Below are positions 1 to 15,146 of a DNA stretch of 19,409 bases, piece after piece. The position numbers were made by a program, and so were the translations under genes. The notes beneath the pieces were generated by a model. It was not told the DNA's origin. It saw only the letters and a program-made list of their open reading frames with translations, and ran no database searches. Numbering within the stretch: position 1 is the stretch's first letter; each line of letters begins with the position of its first letter. This stretch comes from an uncultured Sphingomonadales bacterium (GTDB lineage Bacteria; Pseudomonadota; Alphaproteobacteria; Sphingomonadales; Sphingomonadaceae), in assembly GCA_903868655.1 (NCBI GenBank), contig CAIPWG010000162.1:1-19409 (forward strand), written 5' to 3'.

Positions 1-2972
1 CCCTGGCGTCGGCAGCCAACCAGGATCTTGCCCCGCGGGGTGTACTTGATCGCGTTGCCGACCAGATTGCGCAGCATCTGGTCAAGCAGATGCGGGTCGC
101 TGGTAATCATCCTCGCGCCGGGCATAATGGTCAATTCCAGTCCGCGCGCTTGCGCAGTCATCGTGAATTCGTTGCGCAGGCGATCGAACGCAGCACCGAG
201 TGCAAAGTCCGAAAGCTGCGGCTGGATCACCCCGGCTTCGATCTGGTTGATATTGAGCAGCGCGTCGAGCATGCCCGACATGGCGTGCAGCGTTTGTTCA
301 AACCGGTTCAATAGATCGGTTTTGGACGCACCATCGGCGGCGTTGCCGAGCAGCCCGGTCAACAGCGTCAAGGATTGCAGCGGCTGGCGCAAATCATGGC
401 TGGCTGCCGCCAGAAAACGCGATTTGGCGATGTTGGCGCTTTCGGCTTCGAGCTTGGTCGCTTCGAGCGCGCGCGTGGTCGCCTTGGCCTGAGTAATGTC
501 TGAAAACGTGATGACGACACCTTCGATTCGGGTGTCATGCGCGTGATAGGGAAAGATCCGCCGCAAAAACCATGCGCCCTCCGGCGCCTGCACTTCGCGA
601 TCTATCGACGTTTCTTCGGCAAGCACCCGGCGGGCATCGCCAATCAGATCGGGATCGTTGGCGATCGGCCGCAAATCGGCCAATGGACGGCCGATATCGC
701 CTGGAATAACACTGAACAGCGGACTGATGGCGGGCGTGAAAAACCGGATTTTCAACCCTGCATCGAGGAACATGGTGCCGACATTGGTGCTGTAGAGCAC
801 GTTCTGCAAATCGTCCGAAGCCAGCCTTTGCCGTTCGAGTGTTTCCTGCAACTGACCGTTGAGCGCGGTCAGTTCTTCGTTCAGCGATTGCAGCTCTTCC
901 TTTGATGTCAGCAGCTCTTCATTGGTCGACTGGAACTCTTCGTTGACTGACAGAGCCTCTTCATTGATCGCCTTTTGCTCTTGCTCGGCGGTCTTGCGGC
1001 TTTGAATGGCGCTGGCCACTTCATCGTGGGCGGCTTCGAGTTCGCTTTCCAGCTCGGCAATGCGCGCTGCGTCTGCGGGCATGTCTGAGGCCTGCGGGTC
1101 GGCGCCGGGCAGTTCGACAAAACACACCAGCAGCAAGTCTTCGTTGGTTTCGTTCAACCATTGGATATCGATGCGGAACCAGACCGTAACGTCCCCTACG
1201 GTGACGCGCGCGCGGCCGCCATCGATGCGCGGCTCGGTCTTGCCCGCCCGATCGATCGCCAGCCGCAATTTGGTGCGCAAAGCCGGCGATGCCATCGCCA
1301 GCAGGTTGAGCGAGGCATAGCCTGGAGCAACCCGCAGATAGCGATGCGTGGGCCCCATCGAATAAAGACATTCATAACGGCGATTGATGAGCACTGCGGC
1401 CGGGGCATGGGTTGCCAGAATGATCTGGCTGCATGTCTGCGCCAGACTGGTCTGACGTGCGGGCGTGGATGCCTCGCTATCGGGCTTGATCAACGGCACA
1501 CTGCCGGAAAAGTTGAATGGAAAATCTGGCTGACCCGGGCGGCCATGCGCGATATGGCGGAAACAGCATTCGGCTTTGTCCAGCGGTTCAAACCGGTCGT
1601 CGTTGCGGCCAATGGATTCGGCCGAGCCGAGCACCAGCACGCCGCCTTCTTTGAGCGCAAAATGAAACAGCGCGATGGCTTTGGCCTGGGCATCCGTATT
1701 CAGATAGATGAGCAGATTACGACACGATATCAGGTCTATGCGCGAAAACGGCGGATCGGTCAGCACATCCTGCACGGTAAACACGACTTGCCCGCGCAAG
1801 CCCGGAGCGACGCGGTAGCTGGTATCGTCATGAATAAAAAACCGGCCAAGGCGATCGGCCGAAACCGCGCCGGCGATGTCCAGCGGAAAGACCCCTTCGC
1901 GCGCAAACGCGATGGCATCGGCATCGAGGTCCGATGCGAAAATCTGCAGCTTGATCTCGCGCCCGCTGGCGGCAATTGCATCGCGGCACACCATCGCCAG
2001 CGAATAGGCCTCTTCACCCGTGCTGCACCCGGCAACCCACACGCGCAGCGCCTGATCCGCCGTCAGCTTGGTCAGAAGATCGGGTATGACCGTGGTTTCC
2101 AGCGCGTCGAATACGGCGCCATCGCGGAAAAAACAGGTTACATTGATCAGCAGATCCTGGGCCATTTTTTCGCATTCGGCCTGATCGTGGTTCAAAAGAT
2201 CGCGATATTGGGCCAGATCGCCGGGGCGTATCGCCAGCAGGCCCATGCGCCGTTCGATCCGGCGGCTGATCGTGCCTGGCTTGTATGCACTGAAATCGTG
2301 CCCGGTGCGGTCTTTGACCACGGACAGTATCGCGGAAAGATCTGCCTTGGCCGGCATCGCTTGCGGCGGTGGTGCAGGCCGTGCGGAACGGCCTGCGCCC
2401 AAATCTGTCAACGCGGCCGGGATGTCGGCCAAGGCAGTGATCCGGTCGACCAGCCCGGTGGCAATCGCGCTTTCCGGCATTTCGGGAAACTCTGCCTCTT
2501 CGGGATTTTGCGCAATCGCGCAGCCACCGGCCTGATGGAGCGCGGCCAATGCCTTGCTTCCGTCGCTTCCGGTTCCGGACAAAATCACCGCAATTGTCCG
2601 GCGTGGCGCTGATTGAGCAAGTGACCGCAGCAAGTGGTCGAAGGGCAGGCGCGCGCCGTGGTGCGGTTCGAAAGCGGAGATCTGCAAAAGCCCGGCGCGC
2701 ACCGCAAGAAAATGACCCGGGGGAATGACATGGATATGATCGGACAGCAGTGCGCATCCGTCGATTGCTTCGGCAACCGGCATTGTTGTGTGTTCTGCCA
2801 GCAAACCAGCGAGCAGGCTTTTGTGCGTTGGATCGAGATGCTGGACGACGATGAAGGTCATGCCGCTCGTCACTGGCATCACGTCAAACAGCCGGGATAG
2901 GGCATCCAGCCCACCGGCAGAGGCGCCAATAGCGACAATTGGCCCGACAGCGGGCCCCGTGTTTTCAAGCAT
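1..2972 (-). CDS. CheB-CheR-PAS-histidine kinase fusion protein (3' end missing)
   Basis: A fused chemosensory signalling protein that begins at ATG 2972 and stays open to the left edge (about 990 codons seen). An AAGG sits 7-8 bases before the start. Residues 10-190 are a CheB methylesterase domain without a receiver: GASAGG with Ser18, VVQHLD with His45 and GTGSDGS with Asp137 form the usual triad. Residues about 210-470 are a CheR methyltransferase: a SAYK...RRIERRM helix, NVTCFFRD, the SAM motif VAGCSTGEEAYSL and SCRNLLIYL. About 635-710 is a long Glu/Gln-rich coiled coil with repeated NEE motifs, followed by a PAS domain to about 825. A HisKA domain has the H-box ASHDLRQPLQ (His859), and the ATPase N-box NLVGNAIKYTP is cut by the edge. 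No cheA, cheW or receptor gene is nearby, so it is more likely a stand-alone sensor kinase than part of a flagellar pathway. The signal is unknown; a receiver domain may follow outside the window. Confidence 0.95.
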   Translation of the reverse strand, partial: MLENTGPAVGPIVAIGASAGGLDALSRLFDVMPVTSGMTFIVVQHLDPTHKSLLAGLLAEHTTMPVAEAIDGCALLSDHIHVIPPGHFLAVRAGLLQISAFEPHHGARLPFDHLLRSLAQSAPRRTIAVILSGTGSDGSKALAALHQAGGCAIAQNPEEAEFPEMPESAIATGLVDRITALADIPAALTDLGAGRSARPAPPPQAMPAKADLSAILSVVKDRTGHDFSAYKPGTISRRIERRMGLLAIRPGDLAQYRDLLNHDQAECEKMAQDLLINVTCFFRDGAVFDALETTVIPDLLTKLTADQALRVWVAGCSTGEEAYSLAMVCRDAIAASGREIKLQIFASDLDADAIAFAREGVFPLDIAGAVSADRLGRFFIHDDTSYRVAPGLRGQVVFTVQDVLTDPPFSRIDLISCRNLLIYLNTDAQAKAIALFHFALKEGGVLVLGSAESIGRNDDRFEPLDKAECCFRHIAHGRPGQPDFPFNFSGSVPLIKPDSEASTPARQTSLAQTCSQIILATHAPAAVLINRRYECLYSMGPTHRYLRVAPGYASLNLLAMASPALRTKLRLAIDRAGKTEPRIDGGRARVTVGDVTVWFRIDIQWLNETNEDLLLVCFVELPGADPQASDMPADAARIAELESELEAAHDEVASAIQSRKTAEQEQKAINEEALSVNEEFQSTNEELLTSKEELQSLNEELTALNGQLQETLERQRLASDDLQNVLYSTNVGTMFLDAGLKIRFFTPAISPLFSVIPGDIGRPLADLRPIANDPDLIGDARRVLAEETSIDREVQAPEGAWFLRRIFPYHAHDTRIEGVVITFSDITQAKATTRALEATKLEAESANIAKSRFLAAASHDLRQPLQSLTLLTGLLGNAADGASKTDLLNRFEQTLHAMSGMLDALLNINQIEAGVIQPQLSDFALGAAFDRLRNEFTMTAQARGLELTIMPGARMITSDPHLLDQMLRNLVGNAIKYTPRGKILVGCRRQ

Positions 2973-3156
2973 GATCAAGCCTTGTTCGCGAGCCAAAGTT
3001 GGCGTCGACCTCTTGGGCGGCGTGATCGGTCTTATGTCATGCTTTTTGGCCCATAGGTGCTATACCATAGGCCTTTGCGAATAGTGGCACGGAATATGCA
3101 GGACAGGCATCGTGCCATGCGAAACGCCCATCGCGCGGCGTGTGCCGTTCAGCAAC
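2973..3156. other. Intergenic region upstream of the CheB-CheR kinase
   Basis: This short gap between the kinase start and the porin terminator must hold the kinase promoter. I see no good -35/-10 pair; a TATAGC on the minus strand near 3060 is the only A/T-rich candidate and has no convincing -35. No gene is supported here. Confidence 0.5.
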
Positions 3157-3256: not shown

Positions 3257-4687
3257 TCAGAAGCGCAGGCGGATGCCGGCGGTCGGATCGATTTCGTTGG
3301 TGTACAAGTAACCGCTGGCGAAGCCATTGGTCACGTTGCTGGCCATGATGCCGGCGTAGAACGCAACGTGCTTGTTGAAGTCATAGATACCGGCGATCGA
3401 GAATGCCTGCAGATCGCCGCTGCAGTTGCCAGCCACCGACGACGAGCACCCTGCGTTTGCACCGGTCGCGTAGCTGTTCTGGTGCACGTTGTAATATGCC
3501 AGCCACACCGACAGCTTCTTCGTGGCCGCGATCTGTGCACCGGCCCAGAACACGTCCAGTTTCTTCGGGTTGCTGTAGGCGGTCTGGTTCAGCAGCGCAT
3601 ACGGAATGGTGTAGCCGCCGATGTCGTTATAAGCCGTGCCGGTTGCACCAACCAGCGGGCTGTTCGGGTTTTTGTACTGGATGTTTTCATAGGCGCCGGT
3701 CAACTTGACCATCTTGTTGACTTTGTACGAACCCATCACGGAGTAGGTTTCGGTATCCGAGATGGTTGCAGCCACGGTTTTGTCGACTGCGCAGCCTGGG
3801 CACGACGTGGCAAGACCAGCAACTTGAGCAGCGCTCAATGCCGACGCGCCGACAGCACCCTTCACCGATTCATAGTAGAAATCGACAGTGGCATTGGCGG
3901 CGCTCACGCCTGCCTGGAGACCCAGAGCCGAATGGGCTTCGGCACCGGCCTGTGCGAACTTGTACATCGCGCCGACGCGGAAATGGTCGTTCGAGTACAG
4001 ATACTTGAGCGAGTCATCAAAGCGACGGTCCTGGGTGTTGCCACCGCCAGCATAGGTGCCGGAGAAGCCAATCACCGAGAAGGCCTGCGAAGCAGCCATC
4101 GGGTCATAGGCGCCGATTGCGTCGGCCAGCAGCGTGGTCTGACGACCGAACGTCAGCGTACCGTAATGCTTCGAACTGATACCGGCATAGGCTGCACCAC
4201 CGAAGAATTGGCCGGCGATGCTCGAGTCAGCCGACATCGTCTGGTTGGCCAAAGCCACGCCGTTGTTGAGCGTCAGCGACTTCAGCGCGTCGCTGATGTG
4301 GCCCGACTGCGGGTTGAAGAACGTTTCAAGCTTGAACACGCCCGAAAATTCATCGTTGATGGCTTCTTTGCCGGCAAGCGTGATTTTCGACTGGCTCAGG
4401 CCGCTCGGGATAACGCCGGTGACCGAGCCGTTGTTCTGCTTGGCCACGAACGGGTTGCTGCCAGCGGGGTGAAAATCGCTGATCGGCGCGCCGTGGTTGT
4501 CATACTGCACGCCAAGATCGACGGTGCCCGACAGCGTGATGCCATGGAATGTCAGGCTGTCATCGGCGGCTGGAGCGGGTTTTGCGGTTTCGGCATGGGC
4601 CGAGGCGGCAAAGCCGAGGCACAGCGCGCTGGTCAACAATACGGCCGTACGGCGGGCCTTGAAAGACGTGGCGAGAAAGCTTTTCAT
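3257..4687 (-). CDS. Outer-membrane porin (general bacterial porin fold)
   Basis: A 476-residue secreted beta-barrel protein. The start is ATG 4687 because GGAGG lies about 10 bases before it; the in-frame codon nine codons further upstream would place that Shine-Dalgarno inside the gene. Residues 1-33 are a typical Sec signal peptide (MKSF..., Arg-rich n-region, Leu/Ala core, AHA cleavage site). The mature part begins with a short Pro/Ala linker, then SGTVDLGVQYDN. Alternating beta strands such as YAGISSKHYGTLTFGRQ and SVMGSYKVNKMVKLTGAYE follow, and the chain ends in ...AGIRLRF. The terminal Phe is the BAM recognition signal. The sequence is like Gram-negative porins of the Porin_4/OmpC-like class. 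It is divergent from the MFS permease, so it could feed small sulfosugars into the periplasm, but general permeability cannot be excluded. Substrate is inferred from position only. Confidence 0.9.
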   Translation of the reverse strand: MKSFLATSFKARRTAVLLTSALCLGFAASAHAETAKPAPAADDSLTFHGITLSGTVDLGVQYDNHGAPISDFHPAGSNPFVAKQNNGSVTGVIPSGLSQSKITLAGKEAINDEFSGVFKLETFFNPQSGHISDALKSLTLNNGVALANQTMSADSSIAGQFFGGAAYAGISSKHYGTLTFGRQTTLLADAIGAYDPMAASQAFSVIGFSGTYAGGGNTQDRRFDDSLKYLYSNDHFRVGAMYKFAQAGAEAHSALGLQAGVSAANATVDFYYESVKGAVGASALSAAQVAGLATSCPGCAVDKTVAATISDTETYSVMGSYKVNKMVKLTGAYENIQYKNPNSPLVGATGTAYNDIGGYTIPYALLNQTAYSNPKKLDVFWAGAQIAATKKLSVWLAYYNVHQNSYATGANAGCSSSVAGNCSGDLQAFSIAGIYDFNKHVAFYAGIMASNVTNGFASGYLYTNEIDPTAGIRLRF

Positions 4688-4943
4688 GGTTATGGTTCCT
4701 CCCGAAGCCTGCATGAGCGCGCTTCTTGCGGGCCATTAGCCCACTCTCTACTGCGCTCCAATTTCTACAGACGTCGATGTTGCAAAGACTGGTTGACGTA
4801 ATTAAGCGAATAGCCCCTCAAGGCGCGAATTTGCCGCAAAACTGGCCTTTTCTTGGCGGTTTTTCCGCCTCGGCTCCGGTGTAGCTAGCGGCAGCAACGC
4901 CCCCTGCACGAGCGGCGCTACAAGCCTTTTATGACAGAAATGT

Positions 4944-4957
4944 TGCAAATCGTTGCA
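4944..4957. promoter_or_regulatory. Palindrome resembling a LacI-family operator
   Basis: TGCAAATCGTTGCA has five-base arms TGCAA/TTGCA around ATCG. The shape is close to the general LacI/CcpA-type operator consensus (TGnAAnCGnTTnCA). It lies about 257 bases upstream of the porin start and 215 bases upstream of the MFS start. The binding protein is not known, and no second copy was found in the GH31/TonB-receptor gap. Confidence 0.35.
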
Positions 4958-5083
4958 TGGGAGACACACCCCGCGCAGGAAAACCACTTCCGCTCATCAA
5001 TTGGGGGCATTACCCGAGCTTCAATCCTGGCGTGATACCATTCCGGTCGCCTGAGAAGGCGTGTGGTTTTCCGCCACATAGTG

Positions 5084-5102
5084 CTTGTCTTCCGGTGTCA
5101 TA
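5084..5102 (+). promoter_or_regulatory. 19-base element shared with the GH31 upstream region
   Basis: CTTGTCTTCCGGTGTCATA matches TATGTCAATCGGTGTCATA upstream of the GH31 gene at 14 of 19 positions, including an unbroken CGGTGTCATA. Both copies read in the direction of transcription and end about 70 bases before the start codon (70 here, 69 at the GH31 gene). Both contain TGTC twice, 10 bases apart (one helical turn). It is a candidate operator for the LacI-family protein at 9356-10369. This is inference from sequence comparison by eye. Confidence 0.45.
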
Positions 5103-5172
5103 TCCGGCTTTCCATATCGCGGGGCCACGCTAGAGTGGTGCAAACTGTGTGCATGCAGCGAGAGGCCGGGGG

Positions 5173-6414
5173 ATGACAAGTGTGGTGAGCGGTGATGCCA
5201 CGGCCGACCGCGGGGCACAGCGCCTGATGGTCATGCTGGTTGTCCTGCTGTTTGTGGGCAATGCCTTGAACTATGTCGATCGGCAGGTGCTGGCTTTGCT
5301 CAAGCCAACGCTGGAGGCGCAATTTCATTGGAATGATGCCGAATATGCGCATCTGGGCTCGGCTTTCCAGATTGCAGCGGCGGCAGCATTGTTGTTCGTC
5401 GGCTGGTTTGTTGATCGCCTGGGTGTGCGGCTGGCGTATGGCGTTGCCGTGGCAACGTGGAGCTTGGGCGGCATGGCGCACGCCCTTGCTGTAACAATGC
5501 AGCAGTTTGTGGCTGCGCGGATCGTGCTGGCGGTGGGTGAATCGGTCAGCACGCCTGCGGGATTGAAAGCCGCGACACTCTATTTGCCCGCGCGGCAACG
5601 CAATCTGGCGATCGGTCTGGTCAACACCGCGCCCAATATCGGGGCCATTCTTACGCCCCTTCTGATCCCGCCGTTTGCACTGGCGTTTGGCTGGAAAGCG
5701 GCATTTGTGGTGACCGGCAGCCTCGGTTTTGCCTGGTTGGTCGGATGGATGCTGGCGACGCGCAAGCTGCAACCCTTGGGGCACATGCCTGAACGGTCGT
5801 CGTTTCGCTGGAGCGAATTGCTGCATGATCGACGCACCTGGGCGGTGATCGGCGCCAAGGCGCTGACTGATTGTGTCTGGTGGTTTGTGCTGTTCTGGAT
5901 GCCCGATTTTTTCAACCGGCAGTTCGCCATGGGGCAGGCCGCGCTGGGTTGGCCGATCGCGATCATTTTCTCGTTGGCGGCACTTGGCGCGGTTACATCA
6001 GGCGCTTTCTATCCGCTGCTGCTGGCGCGCGGGTTGAGCGTGAATGCGGCGCGCAAATTCTCGATGTTGTTTTATGCGCTGGTCGTGCTGGCCATGCCTT
6101 TGGCGTTGACCGTCACCAGCCCATGGCTTGCGGCGGTGTTGATCGGGCTGGGCCTGTTTGCGCATCAGGGGTTTTCGACCAATATCCTGGGCATGACCGC
6201 GGATATCATCCCTGCCGACCGGGTGGCCAGCGTGATCGCGCTGGGTGCAGTGGCAGGCAATCTGTCGGGTACCGGGATCATCGAACTGGCGGGGTGGTCA
6301 CTGGGTCATGGCCACGGTTATGTGCCAATGTTCGCGATTTGCGGGGGCGCCTATCTGGCCGCGCTCGCTGTGATCCAGACGTTTGTTCCCCGCCTGAAAC
6401 TGGTCAATGCCTGA
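5173..6414 (+). CDS. MFS transporter, anion:cation symporter (hexuronate) type; candidate sulfosugar importer
   Basis: A 413-residue inner-membrane permease. ATG 5173 is preferred because AGAGG lies 7 bases before it; an in-frame GTG at 5149 would add eight residues. After the first membrane helix comes NYVDRQVLALL, and the loop between helices 2 and 3 has the MFS motif A form GWFVDRLGVR (about residues 75-85). VGESVSTPAG lies at about 120, and RNLAIGLVNTAPNIGAILTPLL matches the family's fifth-helix region. Twelve helices fit the length. This pattern is that of the ACS family (ExuT/UxuT-like), whose members import acidic sugars. It is convergent with the catabolic operon (4-base gap) and shares an upstream element with it, so it is the best candidate for uptake of sulfoquinovose or its glyceryl glycoside. 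Known SQ importers are of GPH (YihO/YihP) or ABC (Smo) type, so the substrate is inferred. Confidence 0.88.
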   Translation: MTSVVSGDATADRGAQRLMVMLVVLLFVGNALNYVDRQVLALLKPTLEAQFHWNDAEYAHLGSAFQIAAAAALLFVGWFVDRLGVRLAYGVAVATWSLGGMAHALAVTMQQFVAARIVLAVGESVSTPAGLKAATLYLPARQRNLAIGLVNTAPNIGAILTPLLIPPFALAFGWKAAFVVTGSLGFAWLVGWMLATRKLQPLGHMPERSSFRWSELLHDRRTWAVIGAKALTDCVWWFVLFWMPDFFNRQFAMGQAALGWPIAIIFSLAALGAVTSGAFYPLLLARGLSVNAARKFSMLFYALVVLAMPLALTVTSPWLAAVLIGLGLFAHQGFSTNILGMTADIIPADRVASVIALGAVAGNLSGTGIIELAGWSLGHGHGYVPMFAICGGAYLAALAVIQTFVPRLKLVNA

Positions 6415-6422
6415 CGCGTCAG
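6411..6422. repeat. 12-base palindrome containing both convergent stop codons
   Basis: CTGACGCGTCAG is a perfect palindrome. It contains the TGA of the MFS gene (6412-6414) and, on the other strand, the TGA of the esterase gene (6421-6419). GGGTTTT follows on the plus strand, so it may act as a weak terminator for the MFS gene (4-base stem, 4-base loop). It may also be chance, given how compact the junction is. Confidence 0.4.
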
Positions 6423-7351
6423 GGTTTTGCGAAGCCTGACGATTTGAGCCACAGCGTAAATTCGTCGAACCAGGCGTCGCTGGTGTTGCCTTTGGGTTGA
6501 GAGGCAAAGCCGTGACCGCCGCTGGTGAACAGGTGAAATTCGACCGACGCGCCCGAACGTCGCCAATTGCTGATCAGACTGAAATCCTGGCCGCCAAAAA
6601 ACCGGTCATCGGCAGCAATTGCGGCAAACAGCGGTGGTGCTTTGGCGGGTACCGTGTCGGCCTGGGTCGGGCCGTAGATCATCCCGGCAAAATCGGGGCG
6701 GGCATCGGCGGCATTGGCTTGCAAAGCGCCCAGCACGGCGATCGCGCCTGCGGAAAAGCCAAGCACGCCGATGCGTGCCGGATCGACATGCCATTGTTCG
6801 GCCTGTTGCCGCACCATGCGGATCGCAGATTGCGTATCGGCCACCGCCAGCGGTATCAGCTTGGCGCGTTCGGCGGCCCCTTCGCCGCGTTGAAAGGTGG
6901 CGGCAATCGCTGACTTGTAGGCGTCGATTCCATCGCCCACGGGCTGGGTGCGATATTTCAGGATAAACACGCGCACGCCGAGCGGTGCCAGGCGGCTGGC
7001 CACATCATACCCTTCGTTGTCGATCGCGAGGAATTGGAACCCGCCACCCGGCACCAGGATTACCGCGGCTTCAGGTGCGGTTCCACCCATGCTGGCGGGC
7101 ATCGGTGTTATGGTGGGATGCGACACGTTATAGATTTGGCGCTGGCTCGGGTCCTGCCGGGCCCAGCCTTCGGCGTCGGGGTTGGGCAGGATTTGTGTCA
7201 CCGGCAAAGGGATCGCAGTCGGTTCGACGGGTTTGGCAACAGGCAGTACACCGTTGACCCAATCGCCCGGCTTCGCCGCCGCCGTTGCAGCACAACCGAC
7301 GATGACCGTGCCTGCCAGCAGCGAGCTGCTCAACCGACGCATCATCGTCAC
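6419..7351 (-). CDS. Exported alpha/beta-hydrolase (acyl-sugar or lipid esterase-like)
   Basis: A 310-residue serine hydrolase, last gene of the sulfoquinovose operon. GTG 7351 overlaps the previous stop as GTGA; ATG 7345 or 7342 is equally possible. Residues 1-26 form a signal peptide ending AATAAA. It also contains IVGC (Cys20), which fits a lipobox, so the protein may be a lipoprotein. The fold is shown by VPGGGF (oxyanion loop, about 100-105), GFSAG with nucleophile Ser200, AADDRF with Asp248/249, and GGHGF with His280. The set resembles acetylxylan-esterase/BD-FAE-type hydrolases. The usual substrates of that family are acyl esters of sugars. In this operon it may remove acyl groups from sulfoquinovosyl lipids or acylated SQ in the periplasm before uptake. 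That role is inference; the Agrobacterium smo cluster has no such gene as far as I know. Confidence 0.88.
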   Translation of the reverse strand: MTMMRRLSSSLLAGTVIVGCAATAAAKPGDWVNGVLPVAKPVEPTAIPLPVTQILPNPDAEGWARQDPSQRQIYNVSHPTITPMPASMGGTAPEAAVILVPGGGFQFLAIDNEGYDVASRLAPLGVRVFILKYRTQPVGDGIDAYKSAIAATFQRGEGAAERAKLIPLAVADTQSAIRMVRQQAEQWHVDPARIGVLGFSAGAIAVLGALQANAADARPDFAGMIYGPTQADTVPAKAPPLFAAIAADDRFFGGQDFSLISNWRRSGASVEFHLFTSGGHGFASQPKGNTSDAWFDEFTLWLKSSGFAKP

Positions 7352-8448
7352 AGCGCCAACGGCCCGTGTGCAATATGCGGCAGTACGTGACGGGCGAACA
7401 GGTCAGCCTCTTGCGCATGAGGATAACCCGACAGAATGAATGCCTCGATCCCTTCGGCCTGATAGGCGCGCAGTTTGGCCAGTACCTGATCGGGCGTACC
7501 GACAATCGCCGCACCGCAGCCCGAACGCGCGCGACCGATCCCGGTCCACAAATTGTCTTCGACAAACCCGTCGCCACCCGCAGCTTTGCGCAATTCGGCC
7601 TGCCTTTGCACACCGAAGTTCTTGGCATCGAGCGATTGTTCGCGGATCGCCTGGCCCGCCGCATCGTCCAGTTTGGAAAGCAGGCGGTCGGCATAGTCAC
7701 GCGCCTCTTCCTCGGTATCGCGCACGATTACATGCGCGCGGTATCCGAATTTCAGCGTGCGACCGAACCGTGCCGCGCGGGCAGTCATATCGGCGATCGT
7801 GTCGCGCACTTTGTCCATCGTATCGGGCCACATCAGATAGACATCGGCGCCTTGTGCTGCGCATTCGCGCGCCTCGTGGCTCAGCCCGCCAAAGTAGAAC
7901 GCCGGGCATTTACCCGAAATCGTCGTCACGCGCGGCGGATCGAGCTTCAACTGGTAAAACTCGCCCTGATGGTCGAGCGCTTCGCCGTTAAGCAGCGTGC
8001 GCACGATCTGCATCACTTCGGTCGCGCGGGCATAGCGCGGGCCAGACGCAATCGTCTCGCCCGGCATGTCCGACGAGATGATATTGACGTTGAGCCGCCC
8101 GGCAGTGCCCGCCGCGTCTGGGCCCAGAATACGGTCAAGCGTGGCAATGCGTCGCGCCAGTTGCGGTGGCCAATCTTCGCCGATCCGTGTTGCCCACAGC
8201 AGCTTGATCCGCCGCACCATTGGCGCCACCGCAGCGGCAAAAGCGGTGGTGTCGAGCCCGAGGCTATAGCCCGACGGCAGCAGGATATTGTCAAACCCGC
8301 CTTCTTCGGCGCGCAGGACGATATTGCGGCAATGCTCCCAGCTCGATTTGAGCTGATCATCGGGAACGCCCAGAAACTCGTAATCGTCGTCGCACAGCGC
8401 CGAAAACCAGGCGATTTCGCACGACGGTGCGGTGACTGGTCCGGTCAT
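7348..8448 (-). CDS. smoC: SsuD-like FMNH2-dependent sulfoquinovose monooxygenase (SmoC role)
   Basis: A 366-residue bacterial-luciferase-like TIM barrel. ATG 8448 is chosen because it overlaps the reductase stop as ATGA and has GGAG about 10 bases upstream. It has the alkanesulfonate monooxygenase (SsuD) landmarks: RIATLDRI with GRLNVNIISS (about 100-126), GYRAHVIVRDTEEEARDY with Arg237 and His239 (SsuD Arg226/His228), the lid-loop ARSGCGAAIVGTP (about 307-319, SsuD Arg297 region) and LSGYPHAQEADLF with Tyr342 (SsuD Tyr331). In the sulfo-SMO pathway this enzyme uses O2 and reduced FMN to cleave the C-S bond of sulfoquinovose, giving 6-oxo-glucose and sulfite. Family membership is certain. 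The SQ substrate rests on the neighbouring sulfoquinovosidase and aldo/keto reductase. Taken alone, it could act on other alkanesulfonates. No flavin reductase partner is in the window. Confidence 0.87.
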   Translation of the reverse strand: MTGPVTAPSCEIAWFSALCDDDYEFLGVPDDQLKSSWEHCRNIVLRAEEGGFDNILLPSGYSLGLDTTAFAAAVAPMVRRIKLLWATRIGEDWPPQLARRIATLDRILGPDAAGTAGRLNVNIISSDMPGETIASGPRYARATEVMQIVRTLLNGEALDHQGEFYQLKLDPPRVTTISGKCPAFYFGGLSHEARECAAQGADVYLMWPDTMDKVRDTIADMTARAARFGRTLKFGYRAHVIVRDTEEEARDYADRLLSKLDDAAGQAIREQSLDAKNFGVQRQAELRKAAGGDGFVEDNLWTGIGRARSGCGAAIVGTPDQVLAKLRAYQAEGIEAFILSGYPHAQEADLFARHVLPHIAHGPLAL

Positions 8449-9359
8449 GGCAGTTTTTCTCCACGTGCGGCGACGAGCACCGCGTACCAGTCGGTGCGCG
8501 ACCATTGCACTGTTGTTGCCGTGGCGGCTTCGGCAATACGCGCGGCGTTTTGCGAACCGACAATCGGTATGATCCCGGCCGGATGTGCTATGACCCAGCT
8601 ATAGGCGGCTACTGTGCGGCTGATCCCGAGCGGTGCGGCCACGGCATCGAGTGCGGCGGCCACGGCTTTGTCGCGTGCGGTTTCGGGCATGGCGATCCGT
8701 CCTCCACCCAGCGGCGACCAGGCGAGGGGGGTCAGGCCCAGCATCATTGCCTGATCCAGTTCGCCATTTTCAAAACAGGCGATGCGCAGCGGGCTGATTT
8801 CGGGCTGGGTCGTGGCCAGCGGCTGGCCCAGAAAGTGTTGGAGCGCTGCGGTCTGATGGATGGTGAAATTTGATACGCCCAAGGCGCGGATCTTGCCCGC
8901 CGCCACCGCAGAATCGAGCGTGCGCGCCACTTCATGGGGATGGGCCAAAATGTCGGGGCGATGGATTTGCCACAAGTCGATGCAATCCACCCTCAGCCGT
9001 TTCAGCGACGCCTCGATCGCTGCGTTGAGATAGGCCGTGCTTTGATCATAGGGTAGCGGCGGCAGGATTCCCCCCTTGCTGGCCAGCACCATGCGATCGC
9101 GCAAGGCTGGTTCCGCCCGCAGCACGTCGCCCAACAGGGCTTCGGCATCGCCAAATCCGGCATGACCATCAAATCCGTATATATCGGCCGTATCGAGCAG
9201 CGTGATCCCGGCTTCGAGTGCTGCATGAACCAGCGTTGCCGCCTCGGTCGCGGTGCGGCCATTTTCGGCAAGCCGCCACATGCCCCAGGCCAGTGGCGAT
9301 ACGGTCAGCGATGATGTCCCGAGCGCGCGGGAAACTGGGGGCAATGGCAATAGGCTCAT
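8445..9359 (-). CDS. smoB: Aldo/keto reductase, probable 6-oxo-glucose reductase (SmoB role)
   Basis: A 304-residue NAD(P)H-dependent oxidoreductase with an (alpha/beta)8 fold. ATG 9359 overlaps the LacI-gene stop as ATGA; reading frames further upstream lie inside that gene. The AKR catalytic tetrad is complete: Asp56 and Tyr61 in LLDTADIYG, Lys95 in LASKGG, and His133 in DLWQIHRPD. GVSNF (about 170) and IPIVGSQNAARI near the C-terminus are the usual substrate-pocket and cofactor-binding motifs. In the oxidative desulfurization pathway of SQ, an AKR reduces 6-oxo-glucose, the product of the monooxygenase, to glucose. Its overlap with the monooxygenase start and its place in a five-gene overlapping operon support that role. 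Substrate and cofactor preference are inferred. Its stop overlaps the next start, which points to translational coupling. Confidence 0.85.
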   Translation of the reverse strand: MSLLPLPPVSRALGTSSLTVSPLAWGMWRLAENGRTATEAATLVHAALEAGITLLDTADIYGFDGHAGFGDAEALLGDVLRAEPALRDRMVLASKGGILPPLPYDQSTAYLNAAIEASLKRLRVDCIDLWQIHRPDILAHPHEVARTLDSAVAAGKIRALGVSNFTIHQTAALQHFLGQPLATTQPEISPLRIACFENGELDQAMMLGLTPLAWSPLGGGRIAMPETARDKAVAAALDAVAAPLGISRTVAAYSWVIAHPAGIIPIVGSQNAARIAEAATATTVQWSRTDWYAVLVAARGEKLP

Positions 9360-10369
9360 GGGTTTATCCTGGCGGGAGGAGCGACCGAAGCACGTTCGAT
9401 CATGGTATGGGGCAGGCGGCGGTGGTTGATGTCTCCGCCGGCGATAAGAATTTCGGTGGCTGTGCGGGCCAGTTCGGCCATCGGTTGATGGATCGTGGTC
9501 AGCGCGGGCCACACCGTGCGGGCCAGCGTGGTGTCATCAAATCCTGCCACCGACAATTGATCGGGCAAAGTCAGCCCGCGCCCATGGGCGACGGCCAGTA
9601 CGCCTGCCGCCATATCATCGTTGGCGGCAAAAATGGCGCTCGGTGGGTGGGGCAAATCGAGCAAGATCCCGCCTGCTGCCATGCCGCTTTCAAAATCGAA
9701 CGCGCCGGGCATGACCAATTGTGGTTCAAACGCGATGCCGCCGCGATCGAGTGCGCGGCGATAGCCAAACAGACGGTCATCGCTGGCCATATGATTGGGA
9801 TGGCCTTTGATGAATCCGATGCGGCGATGCCCCATATTGATCAAATGGGTGGTCATATCGTCGGCGGCTTGCGCATCGTCCATGAACACCGAAGACGTCA
9901 GTGCATGGTTGGTGCCCGGCGAAATGCGCACAAACGGGATGTTGAGGGCATCCAGCGCCTCCAGCACGGCAACGCAGTCGGTCACAGGCGACGACAGGAC
10001 TATGCCGTCGACGTGGGTTTCGCTGACCAGTCCACGCACCTGATCGCCCACATCGGGATCGGCGACATCGACGGGTTGGGCCAGCAGGCGAATGCCGTTG
10101 GCCTTGCAGCATTCCCAGCAACCGGTCTGGATCTGGAACATGTAATAGGGGCTGTGATTGTCGTAGATCAGTGCAATCTGGTTCGACTTTGCACCTGACA
10201 GGATGCGTGCGGCGATGCTGGGGTAGAAATCCAGTTCCTGCATTGCGCGCTCGACTTTTTCGCGCATCGCCGCGCTGACATAAGGGTGGCCATTCAGCAC
10301 ACGGCTCACGGTCTTGACCGCGACGCCTGCACGCAAAGCGACATCGCGGATATTGGCGCGCTCGCTCAT
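9356..10369 (-). CDS. LacI-family transcriptional regulator of the sulfoquinovose operon
   Basis: A 337-residue regulator. ATG 10369 overlaps the GH31 stop as ATGA. Residues 7-30 are the LacI helix-turn-helix (IRDVALRAGVAVKTVSRVLNG). The hinge helix is YPSIAARILSG at about 48-58 (Val-Lys occupies the recognition positions that are Tyr-Gln in LacI). From about 65 there is a periplasmic-binding-protein-like effector domain: ALIYDNHSPYY, VDGIVLSSPV, HRRIGFIKG, IFAANDDMAAG and VAGFDD. It should bind a sugar and release or gain DNA contact. In the smo cluster of Agrobacterium a LacI-type gene (smoD) sits in the same functional context. Here it is the second gene of the operon it would control, so it is probably autoregulated. 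The likely effector is SQ, SQ-glycerol or a later intermediate (inference). Candidate operators are the 19-base elements at 12436-12454 and 5084-5102. Confidence 0.95.
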   Translation of the reverse strand: MSERANIRDVALRAGVAVKTVSRVLNGHPYVSAAMREKVERAMQELDFYPSIAARILSGAKSNQIALIYDNHSPYYMFQIQTGCWECCKANGIRLLAQPVDVADPDVGDQVRGLVSETHVDGIVLSSPVTDCVAVLEALDALNIPFVRISPGTNHALTSSVFMDDAQAADDMTTHLINMGHRRIGFIKGHPNHMASDDRLFGYRRALDRGGIAFEPQLVMPGAFDFESGMAAGGILLDLPHPPSAIFAANDDMAAGVLAVAHGRGLTLPDQLSVAGFDDTTLARTVWPALTTIHQPMAELARTATEILIAGGDINHRRLPHTMIERASVAPPARINP

Positions 10370-12366
10370 CCTGCCATAACCTCGTGCAGCCCTTCGAACA
10401 GCGCGGCATGTTGGCTGCCCATGCGATAAAAAACCGGAGGCAGGCCGATCGGTGCTGCAATGACATGCGCGCCCGGCATCACATCGGTTCCCGTCCAGAC
10501 ATGGCGCCATGACCCGTCACCCGGAATGACGACGGTGCGTTCCACTGCTCCTGCTTCGATGACCGGCGCAACCAGCAGGTCTTCGCCATAAAGAAATTGA
10601 TCCTGCACGGGGTAAAGTTCGGGATTGTCAGCGTAATGCAAAAACAGCGGCCGTTGTACCGGCAATCCCGTGGCAACCGCCTCGTCGCATAGCAGGCGAA
10701 CATAAGGCGCCAGATGCGCATGGACCCGGCTCCACCGGGCAAAACAGTCAAGCAATTCAGGTGTGCTGTCGTATTGCAGATTGTCGTCGGGCCGGTTGCC
10801 TTCGTGGCTGCGCATGACCGGCGCGAATGCGGCCAGTTCGCACCAGCGCTGCATCAGCTCGACGCTGCGCACATTGCCGTGGAGCGAGGTATATCCGCCG
10901 CAATCCGAATGGCTGTATGCATTGCCGACGAGGCCCGCCGACAAACTGGCGGTGATCACCGTGCCAATGCCATCATGGCGCGTGAAATCGACCGATTGGT
11001 CGCCGGCCCACAGCAGCGGGCAATAGCGCGAAACTCCCGAAAAACCCGCGCGCATGAAAAACAGCGCATCGCCCTGCTGCCCGCGCGCAGCCAGCGCAGC
11101 ATCGTTGACTTGCGCCCACAGCACTGGCCACAGGTTGTGCGCCGCCATCGCATCAATTCCGCTGGCCAGCCGCACGTCGGTCGGCAGATATTCGCCAAAA
11201 TCGGCCATCCATCCCGCGATGCCGATATCGAGCATTTCCTGCGCCAGCACCCGCGTCGCAAACCATTCGCAGGTTTCGGGCCGCGTGAAATCGATCACGC
11301 CGCAATCAAATTCGCCGAAATCGACCAGATAGGGCACATTGCTGTCTCGCCGCAGCGCCAGATGGCCGCCTGCCACCGCCTCGCCATACAGGGCGCCATC
11401 GACGGCAAGGTAGGGATTCGCATAAGCCATGAAGCGAATCCCGCGTGTTTTCAGGTGCGCGATCCGGTTAGGCAAGTCGGGGTAGCGGGTGCGGCTGTAT
11501 TGCCAATCCCAGAACAGGCGGCGGCCAAAGCTGGTTTCGCGAATGCCGGCCCAATCTTCGCACCACAGCGCAGACACTGCTGTGCCAGCAGCCAGAAACC
11601 GGTCAAGCCGGTCGAAGCTGGCCTCGCCCTCTTTCAACCCGACAATCGCGCCGCCAATCGCCCAATCGGGCAGTGCCCGGGGCCTGCCGAAATGTGCGGA
11701 TATTTGCCCGACAAGCGCCTGCGGATCCTCTGCCGCGAACACGTCGAACCGCGCGATTGCCTCCCAAATCTCGACTTCGTGCCAGGCTGGATTGCTGAAA
11801 TCGAGCACGCTGTAACAGGTCGTCCGGCAATGGACCGCCAGCCAGCGGGAGGTCAGGAAAGTCGGCTGCGGGTAATTGGTGTTCCAGTAATCACCACCAG
11901 CCATGCCGGTGGCGTCCATGATCTGGGTGAGCGCCGTCGATTTGTCACGACCAACTCCCGGTTCGCTGGTCCACATCGGAAAACGCCGGCCATTGAGCGT
12001 GAAATAGCTCATTTGTTCGCCACCGCCCCACACCGTCTCGCCGGGTTGGGCGGCAAAACGTACCCACAGCCGGTCATGGCGTGGGTCGATTGCGGTCAGG
12101 GCAAAGCCGGTACCGTCGAGATCGATCCGCGCGATTGCGGCTTGACCATCGCGCAGCACGATGCCCGCGTCGTCAGCATGCCACTGGCGCGGGATGACTG
12201 TATCATGCGGAGCATCCGTCATATCGAAATTGCCCCGCAGCATCCTGACCGAGGGCTGACCCCGGGCTACTGTCACCGCTGGACAATCAGGGCTATGGGT
12301 CAGCACTGTGCGGCCCGCCAGCACAAGCGAAAACCCCATTTCACTGATTTCGAGGCGCAATTTCAT
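10366..12366 (-). CDS. smoI: GH31 sulfoquinovosidase (KERWY type)
   Basis: A 666-residue retaining alpha-glycosidase that hydrolyses sulfoquinovosides such as SQ-glycerol to free SQ. It has no signal peptide, so it acts in the cytoplasm after uptake. It is closely like YihQ/SmoI: GWMADFGEYLPTD carries the nucleophile Asp389, WAGDQSVDF the acid/base Asp456, and MRSHEGNRPDDN and PLFLHYAD are also typical. The sulfonate-recognition set is Lys245 (GLKEG), Glu270 (WCEDW), Arg283 and Trp286 (GRRLFW), and Tyr492 (GGYTS). This is the K-E-R-W-Y set of Agrobacterium-type enzymes, not the Q-Q-R-W-Y set of E. coli YihQ. Length is normal for the subfamily (GH31_2). It is the first gene of the operon, with a weak GGAA ribosome site before ATG 12366. 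A plain alpha-glucosidase is unlikely because all five sulfonate-site residues are present. Confidence 0.94.
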   Translation of the reverse strand: MKLRLEISEMGFSLVLAGRTVLTHSPDCPAVTVARGQPSVRMLRGNFDMTDAPHDTVIPRQWHADDAGIVLRDGQAAIARIDLDGTGFALTAIDPRHDRLWVRFAAQPGETVWGGGEQMSYFTLNGRRFPMWTSEPGVGRDKSTALTQIMDATGMAGGDYWNTNYPQPTFLTSRWLAVHCRTTCYSVLDFSNPAWHEVEIWEAIARFDVFAAEDPQALVGQISAHFGRPRALPDWAIGGAIVGLKEGEASFDRLDRFLAAGTAVSALWCEDWAGIRETSFGRRLFWDWQYSRTRYPDLPNRIAHLKTRGIRFMAYANPYLAVDGALYGEAVAGGHLALRRDSNVPYLVDFGEFDCGVIDFTRPETCEWFATRVLAQEMLDIGIAGWMADFGEYLPTDVRLASGIDAMAAHNLWPVLWAQVNDAALAARGQQGDALFFMRAGFSGVSRYCPLLWAGDQSVDFTRHDGIGTVITASLSAGLVGNAYSHSDCGGYTSLHGNVRSVELMQRWCELAAFAPVMRSHEGNRPDDNLQYDSTPELLDCFARWSRVHAHLAPYVRLLCDEAVATGLPVQRPLFLHYADNPELYPVQDQFLYGEDLLVAPVIEAGAVERTVVIPGDGSWRHVWTGTDVMPGAHVIAAPIGLPPVFYRMGSQHAALFEGLHEVMAG

Positions 12367-12435
12367 GCGATTTCCGTGGTTTGACCTTAGTCTGCCCGGC
12401 GCTGGTTGCCGAAGCGCGGTATTTTTAGGTCACTG

Positions 12436-12454
12436 TATGACACCGATTGACATA
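12436..12454 (-). promoter_or_regulatory. Palindromic candidate operator upstream of the sulfoquinovosidase operon
   Basis: On the minus strand TATGTCAATCGGTGTCATA has arms TATGnCA/TGnCATA (six paired positions on each side of the centre) and contains CGGTGTCATA, repeated before the MFS gene. It ends 69 bases before the GH31 start and overlaps the candidate -10. A repressor bound here would block transcription. It is the most plausible target for the LacI-family protein encoded in the operon, but this has not been shown. Confidence 0.5.
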
Positions 12455-12477
12455 TCGAGCGCGTAACGGCAAATCAA
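12449..12477 (-). promoter_or_regulatory. Candidate promoter of the sulfoquinovosidase operon
   Basis: On the minus strand TTGATT (12477-12472) and TATGTC (12454-12449) are 17 bases apart, giving four of six and three of six consensus matches. Initiation near 12442 would leave a leader of about 75 bases. The -10 lies inside the palindromic element, as expected for a repressed promoter. The match is weak and is offered mainly because of that overlap. Confidence 0.3.
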
Positions 12478-12637
12478 CCGACAAAAGCGGGACCGGATCA
12501 GACTTCGGGACACCGGGAGGCCGTACGGGGCAAGGTCAGGTGCAAGGGCAAAGCCCGCGCGCAGACCGGCAGAGAGGATGAGTGGCATGATATCACCGCG
12601 ACACGAAACCACCGCGTGCCCAAGCCGCCGGGCATCG

Positions 12638-12666
12638 TTGTGCCTGGCCGGACTTTAATCTCTACA
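12638..12666 (+). promoter_or_regulatory. Candidate promoter of the TonB-dependent receptor
   Basis: TTGTGC and TCTACA are separated by exactly 17 bases. The perfect -35-like TTGACA just downstream (12674-12679) has no A/T-rich -10 at the right distance. The leader would be about 110 bases. Prediction by eye only. Confidence 0.28.
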
Positions 12667-12782
12667 AATTGAATTGACATAAAGAGGCCCGGACGCCAAG
12701 CCCTGCCGCAAGAGGGGAAAGCGGACGGCATTATCGCTACAGGACAGGCGTGACACGCGCCAACCTCACAGGGGAGAACGAC

Positions 12783-15146
12783 ATGAGATCGACATATTGT
12801 GTATTGGCCGCGCTGCCACTTGTGGCTCTGGTTGCTTCGCCCGCGCTGGCCGCTGTCGCGCCCGCTGTGGCCGCTACGTCTGCTGCGACGGCGCCTGACG
12901 AAATTATTGTGACCGCGCAAAAACGGTCGGAGCCTCTGCAAAAAGTGCCCGTCGCTATCACTGTTGTGTCGGGCGATGCCATGGCGCGCCTGTCCACCAA
13001 CAATATCGAAGATACGCAGCGGCTTGTGCCAGCGCTGACGTTCGTCAAAGGCGACACCAGCCTCAATTCCGCGCTGTTTCTGCGTGGCCTTGGCACGGTC
13101 AGCTTTTCGATCGCTGCCGAACCCAGTGTGACCAGTGTGCTTGACGGCGTCGTGCTGGCGCGTGCGGGCGAAAGCTTTGGCGACCTTTACGATATCGATC
13201 GGGTTGAAGTGCTGCGCGGGCCGCAGGGCACCCTGTTCGGCAAGAATGCATCTGCCGGTGTCATCAACATCGTGACCAAAGAGCCAGGCAAGACGCTGGG
13301 TGGGTATGTCGATGTCGAAGGTTTCAGCGGCGGTGAATACAAGGCGAAGCTCAATCTGGGCGGACCGGTTGGTGACAATTGGCGCGCGGGCGTGACGGCG
13401 TTCTACAGCGATTACAAGGGCAACATCTGGGATCAGACGACCCAGAGCAAGATCAATGGCTACAAGCATTTCGGTTTGCGCGGCCAATTGATCGGTGACG
13501 TGACGCCGAACCTGCATGTCAAGCTGATCGCCGATTATCGCAAGGCCGAAGATGAGTGCTGCGCGTTTGTCGTTGGCGCGCTCAATCCCGCTCCCAATGC
13601 AACGCAAGTGTTGCAGCAGACCATTCTGGCCCCGGCGCTGGGCGGCGCAACGCGGCAAAGCATCCAGAGCCTGCCCAACCGGACCGAGGAAGAAACCTAC
13701 GGCGTTTCCTTGCAGGCAGATCTGGCCCTGGGCACGCATACGCTGACCTCGATCACGTCATGGCGCAAATGGAACAACGAGGAAATTCGCGACGGTGACT
13801 GGGTTGATCAGGTCTACCGCCAGGTTCCATTGATCCATGACGACGGTCCGGAAGGCGCGCATACCTTTACCCAGGAATTGCGTTTGACCTCACCGACCGG
13901 GGGCTTCCTCGATTATGTGCTTGGCGCGTTTTACTATCAGGCGGTGGCGCAACGCACGTATACGCGGTCAGATACATATTGCACCGCCACGACCGCAACG
14001 GTGCAGGCGAATGGTCTCACCCCGTGCCCGGCCAATGTCTCGACTATCGTCAATGCGGTAGGGGTCGGCGTGTTCGGTTCGACCTTTGACAATGTGGCGG
14101 CTTATGGTCAGGCGACATGGCATTTCGCGCCGACTGTCCGCCTGGTCACGGGGCTGCGGTACACGCATGACAAAGTCTCGGCCTATGACACCCGCACCGA
14201 TACGCTGAACGGAATTGTCGGACCAGCCGGCATCGGGGCGAATTTCGACGCCAATGTTGCCAAGGGCGGCACCTTTAACGGCACGCCGTGGACGGGCTCC
14301 ACGAGCGCGAGCAATGTCTCGGGCAAGGCTGCGCTCGAATACGATATTGCGCGCGATCACATGCTCTACGCCAGCTATTCACGCGGTTACAAAGGCCCGG
14401 CGTTCAACGTGTTTTTCAACATGTCGGCAGCCAACACCGCGCCGATCGCGGCTGAAAACTCGAATGCGTTCGAAGTCGGATTGAAGAACAGCTTCGATCA
14501 CGGCCGCTTCATCTTCAACGTCGACGGGTTTTATACCAAGGTATACAATTATCAGGCCAATTATCCGACAACGGTGAACGGTACAGTGACAACCACCATC
14601 ATCAACGCGGGCAATGTGTCGACCCGTGGCGGCGAAGTGGAGCTGCTGTTCCGGCCGAACCGCCAACTGACGATCAACGCCGGTTACAATTACACCGATG
14701 CCCGTGTTGACCAGTTTCTTCAGCCGCCGGCTGCGCAAGCGGCCAACTACATTGCTTCGGGCACGCCCCTCGCGTTTGCGCCCAAGAACAAGGGCAGTCT
14801 TGGCGCGACATATACCGCCGAACCGCAAGGCCTGCCGTTTGCACTGGAATTCAACGGCTTGGCGGCTTACACCGACAAGCAGGTATCCACGCTGGCGCCA
14901 ACCAACACGGCCGCGCAAATCACTGCATTCCAGCAGCAGATCCTGAAAGCCTATACCCAGGTCGATATCAGCGTGGCCGCCGTCGATCTGGCCAAGCACT
15001 ATCGTCTGGCGTTCGTGGTGAAAAACCTGTTCAACGACCACTATGCCTCGACCATCGGCAGTGGCGGTCCGTTCGGCTCATACATCTATCAAATCCCGCG
15101 CGACTCCGATCGCTACTGGGGTGTGACACTGCGCTACAATTTCTGA
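12783..15146 (+). CDS. TonB-dependent outer-membrane receptor, probable sulfoquinovoside uptake
   Basis: A 787-residue receptor. ATG 12783 follows GGGGAG by about 8 bases; an in-frame GTG at 12750 lacks this. Residues 1-24 are a signal peptide (cleavage near ALA/AVA). EIIVTAQKR at about 40-48 is the TonB-box region typical of sphingomonad receptors. The plug domain runs to about 165 (VPVAITVVSG, LFLRGLGT, DIDRVEVLRGPQGTLFGKNASAGVINIVT). A 22-strand barrel follows and ends in ...WGVTLRYNF with the terminal Phe. Such receptors take up scarce ligands with energy from TonB-ExbBD. The gene is divergent from the sulfoquinovosidase operon with a shared regulatory gap, so SQ, SQ-glycerol or deacylated sulfolipid is the likely ligand (inference). 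An iron-chelate role cannot be excluded from sequence alone. A hairpin terminator follows. Confidence 0.95.
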   Translation: MRSTYCVLAALPLVALVASPALAAVAPAVAATSAATAPDEIIVTAQKRSEPLQKVPVAITVVSGDAMARLSTNNIEDTQRLVPALTFVKGDTSLNSALFLRGLGTVSFSIAAEPSVTSVLDGVVLARAGESFGDLYDIDRVEVLRGPQGTLFGKNASAGVINIVTKEPGKTLGGYVDVEGFSGGEYKAKLNLGGPVGDNWRAGVTAFYSDYKGNIWDQTTQSKINGYKHFGLRGQLIGDVTPNLHVKLIADYRKAEDECCAFVVGALNPAPNATQVLQQTILAPALGGATRQSIQSLPNRTEEETYGVSLQADLALGTHTLTSITSWRKWNNEEIRDGDWVDQVYRQVPLIHDDGPEGAHTFTQELRLTSPTGGFLDYVLGAFYYQAVAQRTYTRSDTYCTATTATVQANGLTPCPANVSTIVNAVGVGVFGSTFDNVAAYGQATWHFAPTVRLVTGLRYTHDKVSAYDTRTDTLNGIVGPAGIGANFDANVAKGGTFNGTPWTGSTSASNVSGKAALEYDIARDHMLYASYSRGYKGPAFNVFFNMSAANTAPIAAENSNAFEVGLKNSFDHGRFIFNVDGFYTKVYNYQANYPTTVNGTVTTTIINAGNVSTRGGEVELLFRPNRQLTINAGYNYTDARVDQFLQPPAAQAANYIASGTPLAFAPKNKGSLGATYTAEPQGLPFALEFNGLAAYTDKQVSTLAPTNTAAQITAFQQQILKAYTQVDISVAAVDLAKHYRLAFVVKNLFNDHYASTIGSGGPFGSYIYQIPRDSDRYWGVTLRYNF

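Follow-up and report, generated by a model that had tools for sequence, protein, structure and literature searches.

A putative LacI-controlled sulfoquinovose regulon in a Novosphingobium-like genome, with a TonB-dependent receptor and an MFS permease as the proposed import route

The 19,409-nucleotide stretch analysed here (the window), contig CAIPWG010000162.1 of an uncultured Sphingomonadales bacterium (GCA_903868655.1), most likely carries a LacI-controlled regulon of the sulfo-SMO type for the use of the sulfur-bearing plant sugar sulfoquinovose (SQ), in which import would proceed through a TonB-dependent receptor (TBDR) and a permease of the major facilitator superfamily (MFS); the probability of this reading is put at roughly 80%. 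What can be read from the sequence in its favour is the gene content, the conserved gene order, active-site residues, the conservation and rarity of the operator, and the co-occurrence of TBDR and MFS with the SQ monooxygenase SmoC. The genome of the window (contig C162) comprises 2.93 Mb in 654 contigs, is 85% complete and is a Novosphingobium-like metagenome-assembled genome; among named genomes it is closest to Novosphingobium and further members of the Sphingomonadales. The yearly production of SQ is estimated at 10 billion tons (PMC12890257), and the present analysis names a candidate receptor, permease, likely exporter and 19-base operator for its use.

According to the proposed mechanism, SQ-glycerol and/or SQ would be carried across the outer membrane by a dedicated TBDR and across the inner membrane by a DgoT-like MFS permease. 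In the cytoplasm a glycoside hydrolase of family GH31 would free SQ, SmoC would cut the C-S bond with reduced flavin (supplied by a reductase encoded elsewhere) to give sulfite and 6-dehydroglucose, and an aldo/keto reductase (AKR) would reduce the latter to glucose. The LacI-family regulator would bind TATGACACCGNNNGACATA at two places and be released by SQ or a derivative.

Genes of the locus and their predicted functions

The core of the locus is an operon on the minus strand. It starts with the sulfoquinovosidase gene of the YihQ/SmoI type (GH31; 10366..12366), recognised by NCBIfam PRK10426, PDB matches and aligned residues, which is followed by the LacI-family regulator (9356..10369; Pfam LacI and Peripla_BP_3), the SmoB/SquF-like AKR (8445..9359; Pfam Aldo_ket_red and a PDB match), to which the step from 6-dehydroglucose to glucose is ascribed, and the SmoC/SquD-like FMNH2-dependent SQ monooxygenase (7348..8448, in a frame open from 8505; Bac_luciferase and a PDB match). 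The reading frames are joined by 4-base overlaps at GH31/LacI, LacI/AKR and AKR/SmoC, and likewise at SmoC and an alpha/beta hydrolase of the esterase type (6419..7351, minus strand; Pfam BD-FAE, Abhydrolase_3 and DLH). The TBDR, the proposed outer-membrane importer (12783..15146, plus strand, with a probable ATG at 12783 in a frame open from 12750; Plug and TonB_dep_Rec_b-barrel), is divergent from GH31-LacI-AKR-SmoC, and the MFS permease, the proposed inner-membrane importer (5149..6414, plus strand, with a probable ATG at 5173; Pfam MFS_1), is convergent with the operon. The initial annotation, made from the sequence of the window, had described an overlapping operon of sulfoquinovosidase, LacI regulator, AKR and SsuD-like monooxygenase with a divergent TBDR and a convergent MFS, all of which are present in the orientation it gave; the hydrolase overlapping SmoC was not mentioned there.

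The GH31 protein scores 863.5 bits against PRK10426, the YihQ-type model, for which the cut-off is 553 (a margin of 310 bits), and its best PDB match is 5ohy (834 bits), others including 5ohs and YihQ itself (5aed, 600 bits). The YihQ residues Q288/R301/W304/D405/D472/Y508 align to E270/R283/W286/D389/D456/Y492 of GH31, so that all are conserved save Q288, which is replaced by E; the R, W and Y and both D residues of YihQ are presumably those of sulfonate recognition and catalysis in sulfoquinovosidase. Since no signal peptide is visible by eye, GH31 is presumably cytoplasmic. The monooxygenase finds its best PDB matches in 7olf/7oh2 (379/371 bits), about 200 bits above 1nqk/1m41 (1nqk, 179 bits), and the AKR in 7bbz/7bby. 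The deposited names of these entries are generic, and we take 7olf/7oh2 to be SmoC, 1nqk to be SsuD and 7bbz/7bby to be SmoB of Agrobacterium tumefaciens. The enzyme types of the sulfo-SMO pathway named in the initial annotation are borne out by these matches. SmoB and SmoC, for which a 10-ORF (open reading frame) window has been used as a criterion (PMC13372026), are here encoded by adjacent and overlapping genes. The activities of GH31, SmoC and AKR are predicted ones, and the assignment of the locus to the sulfo-SMO (sulfo-ASMO) pathway, by which SQ would be converted to sulfite and glucose, is well supported by these comparisons.

Conservation of the locus among sphingomonads

At least 579 relatives of the locus were found, of which the best 80 named loci were kept, many of them ended by contig edges. 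The order TBDR | GH31-LacI-AKR-SmoC is repeated in named genomes from many sphingomonad genera, and the locus is therefore more than a chance assembly; a search for the same gene set in other sphingomonads had been proposed at the outset, and these 80 loci answer it. Matches were present to AKR and SmoC in all 80 loci, to LacI in 76 (at least 70% identical in 74 of them), to GH31 in 73, to TBDR in 69, to MFS in 65, to a YeiH-family gene in 50, to the hydrolase in 2 and to the porin that lies beside MFS in the window in none. When 17 shorter loci were set aside, the remaining 63, each longer than 15 kb, contained TBDR, GH31, AKR and SmoC in every case, LacI in 61 and YeiH in 45. The MFS in these long loci is at least 50% identical to that of the window in 29, 35-49% identical in another 29 and below 35% in 2 (L019 and L021, where the proteins are probably unrelated), and 3 loci have none.

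Putative LacI operators and the extent of the proposed regulon

Operator 1, TATGACACCGATTGACATA (12436..12454, plus strand), is in the TBDR/GH31 intergenic region at a distance of 70 bp from the start of GH31, and operator 2, TATGACACCGGAAGACAAG (5084..5102, minus strand; differing at 2 of the 16 fixed positions), precedes the probable start of MFS by 71 bp. The exact core TGACACCGNNNGACA occurs at 12438-12452 and 5086-5100, with no third copy in the genome and 0 for the control, so that no further regulon members were found through the core in this 85%-complete genome, both copies being within the window. In 59 genomes of the genus (own included) the core was found at 40 places in 24 genomes, compared with 3 for the reversed control, and 11 genus genomes have two core sites 3.9-4.8 kb apart.

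The site between TBDR and GH31 is conserved. Among 63 intergenic regions (62 loci and the window; 6 more loci were skipped for bad ORF bounds), 61 contain a site with at most 2 mismatches to TATGACACCGCTTGACATA, and 50 shuffled consensus strings always had at least 4 mismatches there. With the relaxed LacI-type operator TATGACACCGNNNGACATA (at most 3 mismatches, alignment-based gene starts) a site is present in 66/66 loci that have TBDR, GH31 and LacI. A strict position weight matrix built from operator 1 alone misses the MFS site of the window, which is detected by the relaxed core. Among the 63 long loci, a site is found upstream of MFS in 28 of the 29 that have an MFS of at least 50% identity.

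The operator also accompanies MFS genes that lie away from the locus, as was seen in 16 genomes with MFS distant from SmoC (G233 among them, with an MFS of only 47% identity). In those whose SmoC locus has this LacI (70-82%) and GH31 (G209, G186, G377, G083, G131, G181 and G357), the distant MFS has a site upstream in 7/7 genomes, with the exact core in 6 and one mismatch in G357; in the latter the intergenic site bears the same altered base (TGACAaCG) as the MFS site, a pattern that a joint change of regulator and sites would lead one to expect. Where this LacI is not in the fetched SmoC stretch (G386, G339, G133, G121, G245, G247, G374, G179 and G233), a site with at most 3 mismatches was found at 0/9 distant MFS genes; G374 has a 48% LacI in the SmoC stretch and G179 a 49% LacI beside MFS. 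The second MFS of G186 (54%) has no operator upstream. Conserved operator-like sites are found at the proposed target promoters, as a LacI-controlled regulon would have them; LacI would be expected to bind both predicted operators, and the inducer named above is likewise a proposed one. In G357 a third operator-like site, with 3 mismatches, is located beyond TBDR (L213, 15928).

The porin and a putative YeiH-family exporter

In 50 of the 80 related loci a PF03601/YeiH-family gene (Pfam confirmed on 4) stands beside MFS. It is divergent from MFS in 25 loci, with a site between the two or just upstream in 25/25, and co-directional in the other 25, with a site upstream of YeiH in 21, which gives an operator upstream of YeiH in 46/50 loci in total. 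The literature treats the YeiH family as putative exporters of sulfate or, more probably, of sulfite (PMC11582611; PMC12423496), and the regulon in many relatives seems to include this exporter, probably for sulfite.

Three close relatives of the window (L002, L003 and L170) have YeiH divergent from MFS. In the window the gene divergent from MFS is a porin (3257..4714, minus strand; Pfam Porin_4), which the initial annotation had included in the uptake route. The gene and its orientation stand, and the porin as a part of the import route was rejected, with no match in the 80 related loci at E<=1e-20; the interval first drawn for the locus, 4688-15146, leaves it almost wholly outside. The sole operator in the MFS/porin intergenic region is 71 bp from the MFS start and about 370 bp from the porin start. 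Because the relatives have YeiH at this place and none has the porin, the latter looks like a local replacement or insertion, outside the import route.

The TBDR and the MFS permease as the proposed import route

The co-occurrence of the transport genes with SmoC was followed in an order-level set of 396 genomes (own included), 88 of them SmoC-positive and 308 SmoC-negative. At E<=1e-100 a TBDR was present in 87/88 SmoC-positive and 11/308 SmoC-negative genomes, figures in which absences are soft, since 2 candidates were scored per genome, and for which the p-value of the association is not to be taken at face value, as related genomes are not independent. The TBDR lies at most 15 kb from SmoC in 85 of the 88. 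For MFS 4 candidates were scored per genome, so that here too absences are soft: a listed match is present in 82/88 SmoC genomes, in 65 of them at a distance of at most 15 kb from SmoC, and among the matches listed an identity of at least 50% is confined to SmoC genomes, the others reaching 43% at best. In 15 SmoC genomes an MFS of at least 50% identity lies beyond 15 kb of SmoC or on a separate contig. The closest solved structure to the MFS of the window is the D-galactonate transporter DgoT (6e9n, E 6e-28); with 133.1 bits against a cut-off of 395, the MFS of the window is not a member of the TIGR00893 D-galactonate transporter subfamily. No ABC gene (ATP-binding cassette) was found among the identified genes of the window, where TBDR and MFS are present instead. 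That TBDR and MFS stand in for an ABC importer, as the initial annotation had it, is well supported as a prediction by this co-occurrence together with the operators; the substrates and the direction of transport are the putative ones given above.

Several observations weigh against the regulon and import route as proposed. Eleven genomes carry such a TBDR without SmoC; since TRAP-component matches were found in 8 of these stretches (L198-L208), a sodium:solute symporter in 1 and distant Gfo/Idh proteins (32-35%) in 5, most of them look like other uptake loci, as judged by the query set used. The listed MFS is absent within 15 kb in 23/88 SmoC genomes and altogether in 6, and in the 35-49% class an operator lies directly upstream of MFS in 0/29 long loci, so that these permeases would be read with TBDR or be different transporters. 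L019 and L021 have the enzymes and TBDR, yet are without this LacI and operator, and several genus genomes have single or scattered core sites off the locus, which may be chance. No flavin reductase (SmoA/SsuE) is among the identified genes of the window; 2 PF01613 and 4 PF03358 matches elsewhere in the genome are unproven candidates, and a clustered reductase is not required for sulfo-SMO, because Novosphingobium aromaticivorans is also described as being without one (PMC9594981). Finally, YeiH gave no tblastn match in the window at E<=1e-3, and the sulfite exporter is not local. The genome's own YeiH is on contig C626, 77% and 85% identical to the copies of L002 and L003, with no operator-like site (at most 5 mismatches) in the 473 bases upstream of it, and 2 PF00174 matches (sulfite-oxidase type) are found elsewhere in the genome. 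Of the full path from the outer membrane to glucose and sulfite that had been annotated, the enzymes, TBDR and MFS are supported by sequence, and a local flavin reductase and sulfite exporter are missing. On contig C626 (L237, 474-1568, in genome G000) the genes after YeiH are a GH130-like one and one for a flavodoxin-like reductase.

Three other explanations, not mutually exclusive, have to be weighed. The first, which is unlikely, keeps the pathway as stated, denies both TBDR and MFS the role of SQ importer, makes the MFS an exporter of an end product (sulfite, glucose) and lets SQ enter by way of an unlinked carrier and general porins. Porins would admit a molecule of the size of SQ-glycerol, and the direction of transport is not readable from sequence. 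Moreover YihP, the MFS of a related pathway, is described as an exporter of DHPS (2,3-dihydroxypropanesulfonate; PMC12890257). However, the TBDR accompanies SmoC nearly one for one, the MFS is nearest, among solved structures, to a D-galactonate transporter, and in the 50 related loci with YeiH that gene already offers an exporter.

A role of the locus in the use of another sulfosugar or of an acylated fragment of a sulfolipid, and not of SQ-glycerol or SQ, is less likely still. An AMP-binding gene of the acyl-CoA-synthetase type lies between the GH31 sulfoquinovosidase-like gene and TBDR in L171 (2721-4364) and L233 (15315-16967), hinting at acylated sulfolipid fragments as substrates, and in the window itself an esterase-like gene is coupled to the operon. 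Against this, GH31 retains the sulfoquinovosidase residues and the high YihQ-type score given above, and the esterase-like gene is not a conserved companion of the locus. That TBDR and MFS are accidental neighbours in sphingomonads rich in TBDR (17 to 188 candidates per genome among the genomes listed) is very improbable, as the position of TBDR is fixed across genera and an MFS of at least 50% identity accompanies SmoC even when unlinked, with the operator where this LacI is present.

The esterase-type hydrolase has a signal peptide by eye and is placed between SmoC and the convergent MFS. It was considered as a conserved sulfolipid deacylase, a reading that found no support: its relatives (E<=1e-40) occur in 63/396 genomes, 20 of them with SmoC, only the window's own copy lies at most 15 kb from SmoC, and the matches in 2/80 loci stand about 8 kb beyond SmoC. 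As it does not adjoin SmoC in relatives, the hydrolase beside SmoC is a lineage-specific addition.

Variation outside the LacI-GH31 type

In a class-level set of 289 genomes (own included) SmoC was found in 14. Fifteen stretches (L155-L169), from 13 class-level SmoC genomes and two from another family of the order, have different transport genes, i.e., TRAP in L163-L167, a sodium:solute symporter in L168 and L169, and other MFS proteins in L155, L158, L161 and L162; L156, L157, L159 and L160 gave no match to the transporter queries used. No GH31 or LacI match was found in the 11 stretches with TRAP, symporter or other MFS (L155, L158, L161-L169), and a Gfo/Idh gene is present in 12/15. The SmoC-AKR pair is shared with other alphaproteobacterial loci, which usually differ by a GH188-type Gfo/Idh gene and other transporters. 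The motif R-x3-L-x-K occurs in 7/7 Gfo/Idh proteins checked, sphingomonad ones included, and since it matches the GH188 sulfonate site R166/L170/K172 (PMC11465081), these proteins are probably NAD-dependent sulfoquinovosidases.

The sphingomonad TBDR adjoins such a GH188-like gene too (L214, L215, L221-L223 and L226). On balance, sphingomonads would appear to possess a dedicated TonB-energised import of sulfosugar glycosides, composed of TBDR, a DgoT-like MFS, a YeiH-type sulfite exit in relatives and a single LacI repressor, in which TBDR is kept with SmoC while LacI-GH31 swaps with a GH188-like gene. If true, this would be, to our knowledge, the first TBDR assigned to sulfosugar uptake, and TBDR together with the operator may provide a simple marker for SQ use in sphingomonad genomes.

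In L172, L209, L211, L214, L215, L221-L223 and L226 the sphingomonad SmoC locus has, instead of GH31 and LacI, a Gfo/Idh gene of GH188-like type; TBDR adjoins in most, and MFS is often elsewhere. The SmoC-AKR loci L171, L019 and L021 have TBDR and a 52% GH31, without this LacI type and operator; by eye, there is a LysR-like gene in the vicinity.

Relation to known systems

The sulfo-SMO locus SmoA-I of A. tumefaciens was reportedly described by Sharma et al. in 2022. It has homologues of SmoC, SmoB and the GH31 SmoI in common with the window. It employs an SQ-glycerol ABC transporter (PMC9594981), whereas the window has TBDR, MFS and a LacI operator pair, with no SmoA identified. Sulfo-ASMO enzymes have been demonstrated in both A. 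tumefaciens and N. aromaticivorans (PMC9594981; PMC12890257), SquD and SquF being characterised from N. aromaticivorans DSM 12444 (Liu et al., 2021, as cited in PMC9594981), whose GH31 is also named in PMC13219744. The N. aromaticivorans system shares with the window the enzyme types, the bacterial group and the lack of a clustered SsuE (PMC9594981); transport and regulation of its cluster are not discussed in section 10 of that review. In a stable-isotope study sulfo-SMO was predicted in labelled Novosphingobium, a genus among the predominant freshwater SQ users (PMC13372026), and a Sphingomonas strain is among the representative clusters with an NAD-dependent enzyme in PMC10755693, in a passage that does not state the pathway. 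The pathway is not new for sphingomonads, and the locus belongs to a known pathway whose presence in this group was already known.

The import route by TBDR and MFS, the LacI operator pair and the link to YeiH appear to be an undescribed variant. The words TonB and LacI occur 0 times in the main texts of PMC9594981, PMC12890257, PMC13372026, PMC10755693 and PMC13219744, and neither a role of a TBDR or LacI in the use of SQ nor an account of how such bacteria import SQ was found in the texts consulted; where papers contain both SQ and TonB, the passages have the two in unconnected contexts. This absence is not firm, as these genes may already appear in figures of Liu 2021, Sharma 2022 and Ye 2023.

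Other genes of the window

A fusion histidine kinase (CheB-CheR-PAS-HisKA; 3-3059) is truncated by the left contig end. The right end of the window carries a VOC-family gene and an Esterase-family gene, together with nusB, hisD and hisG, identified by eye.

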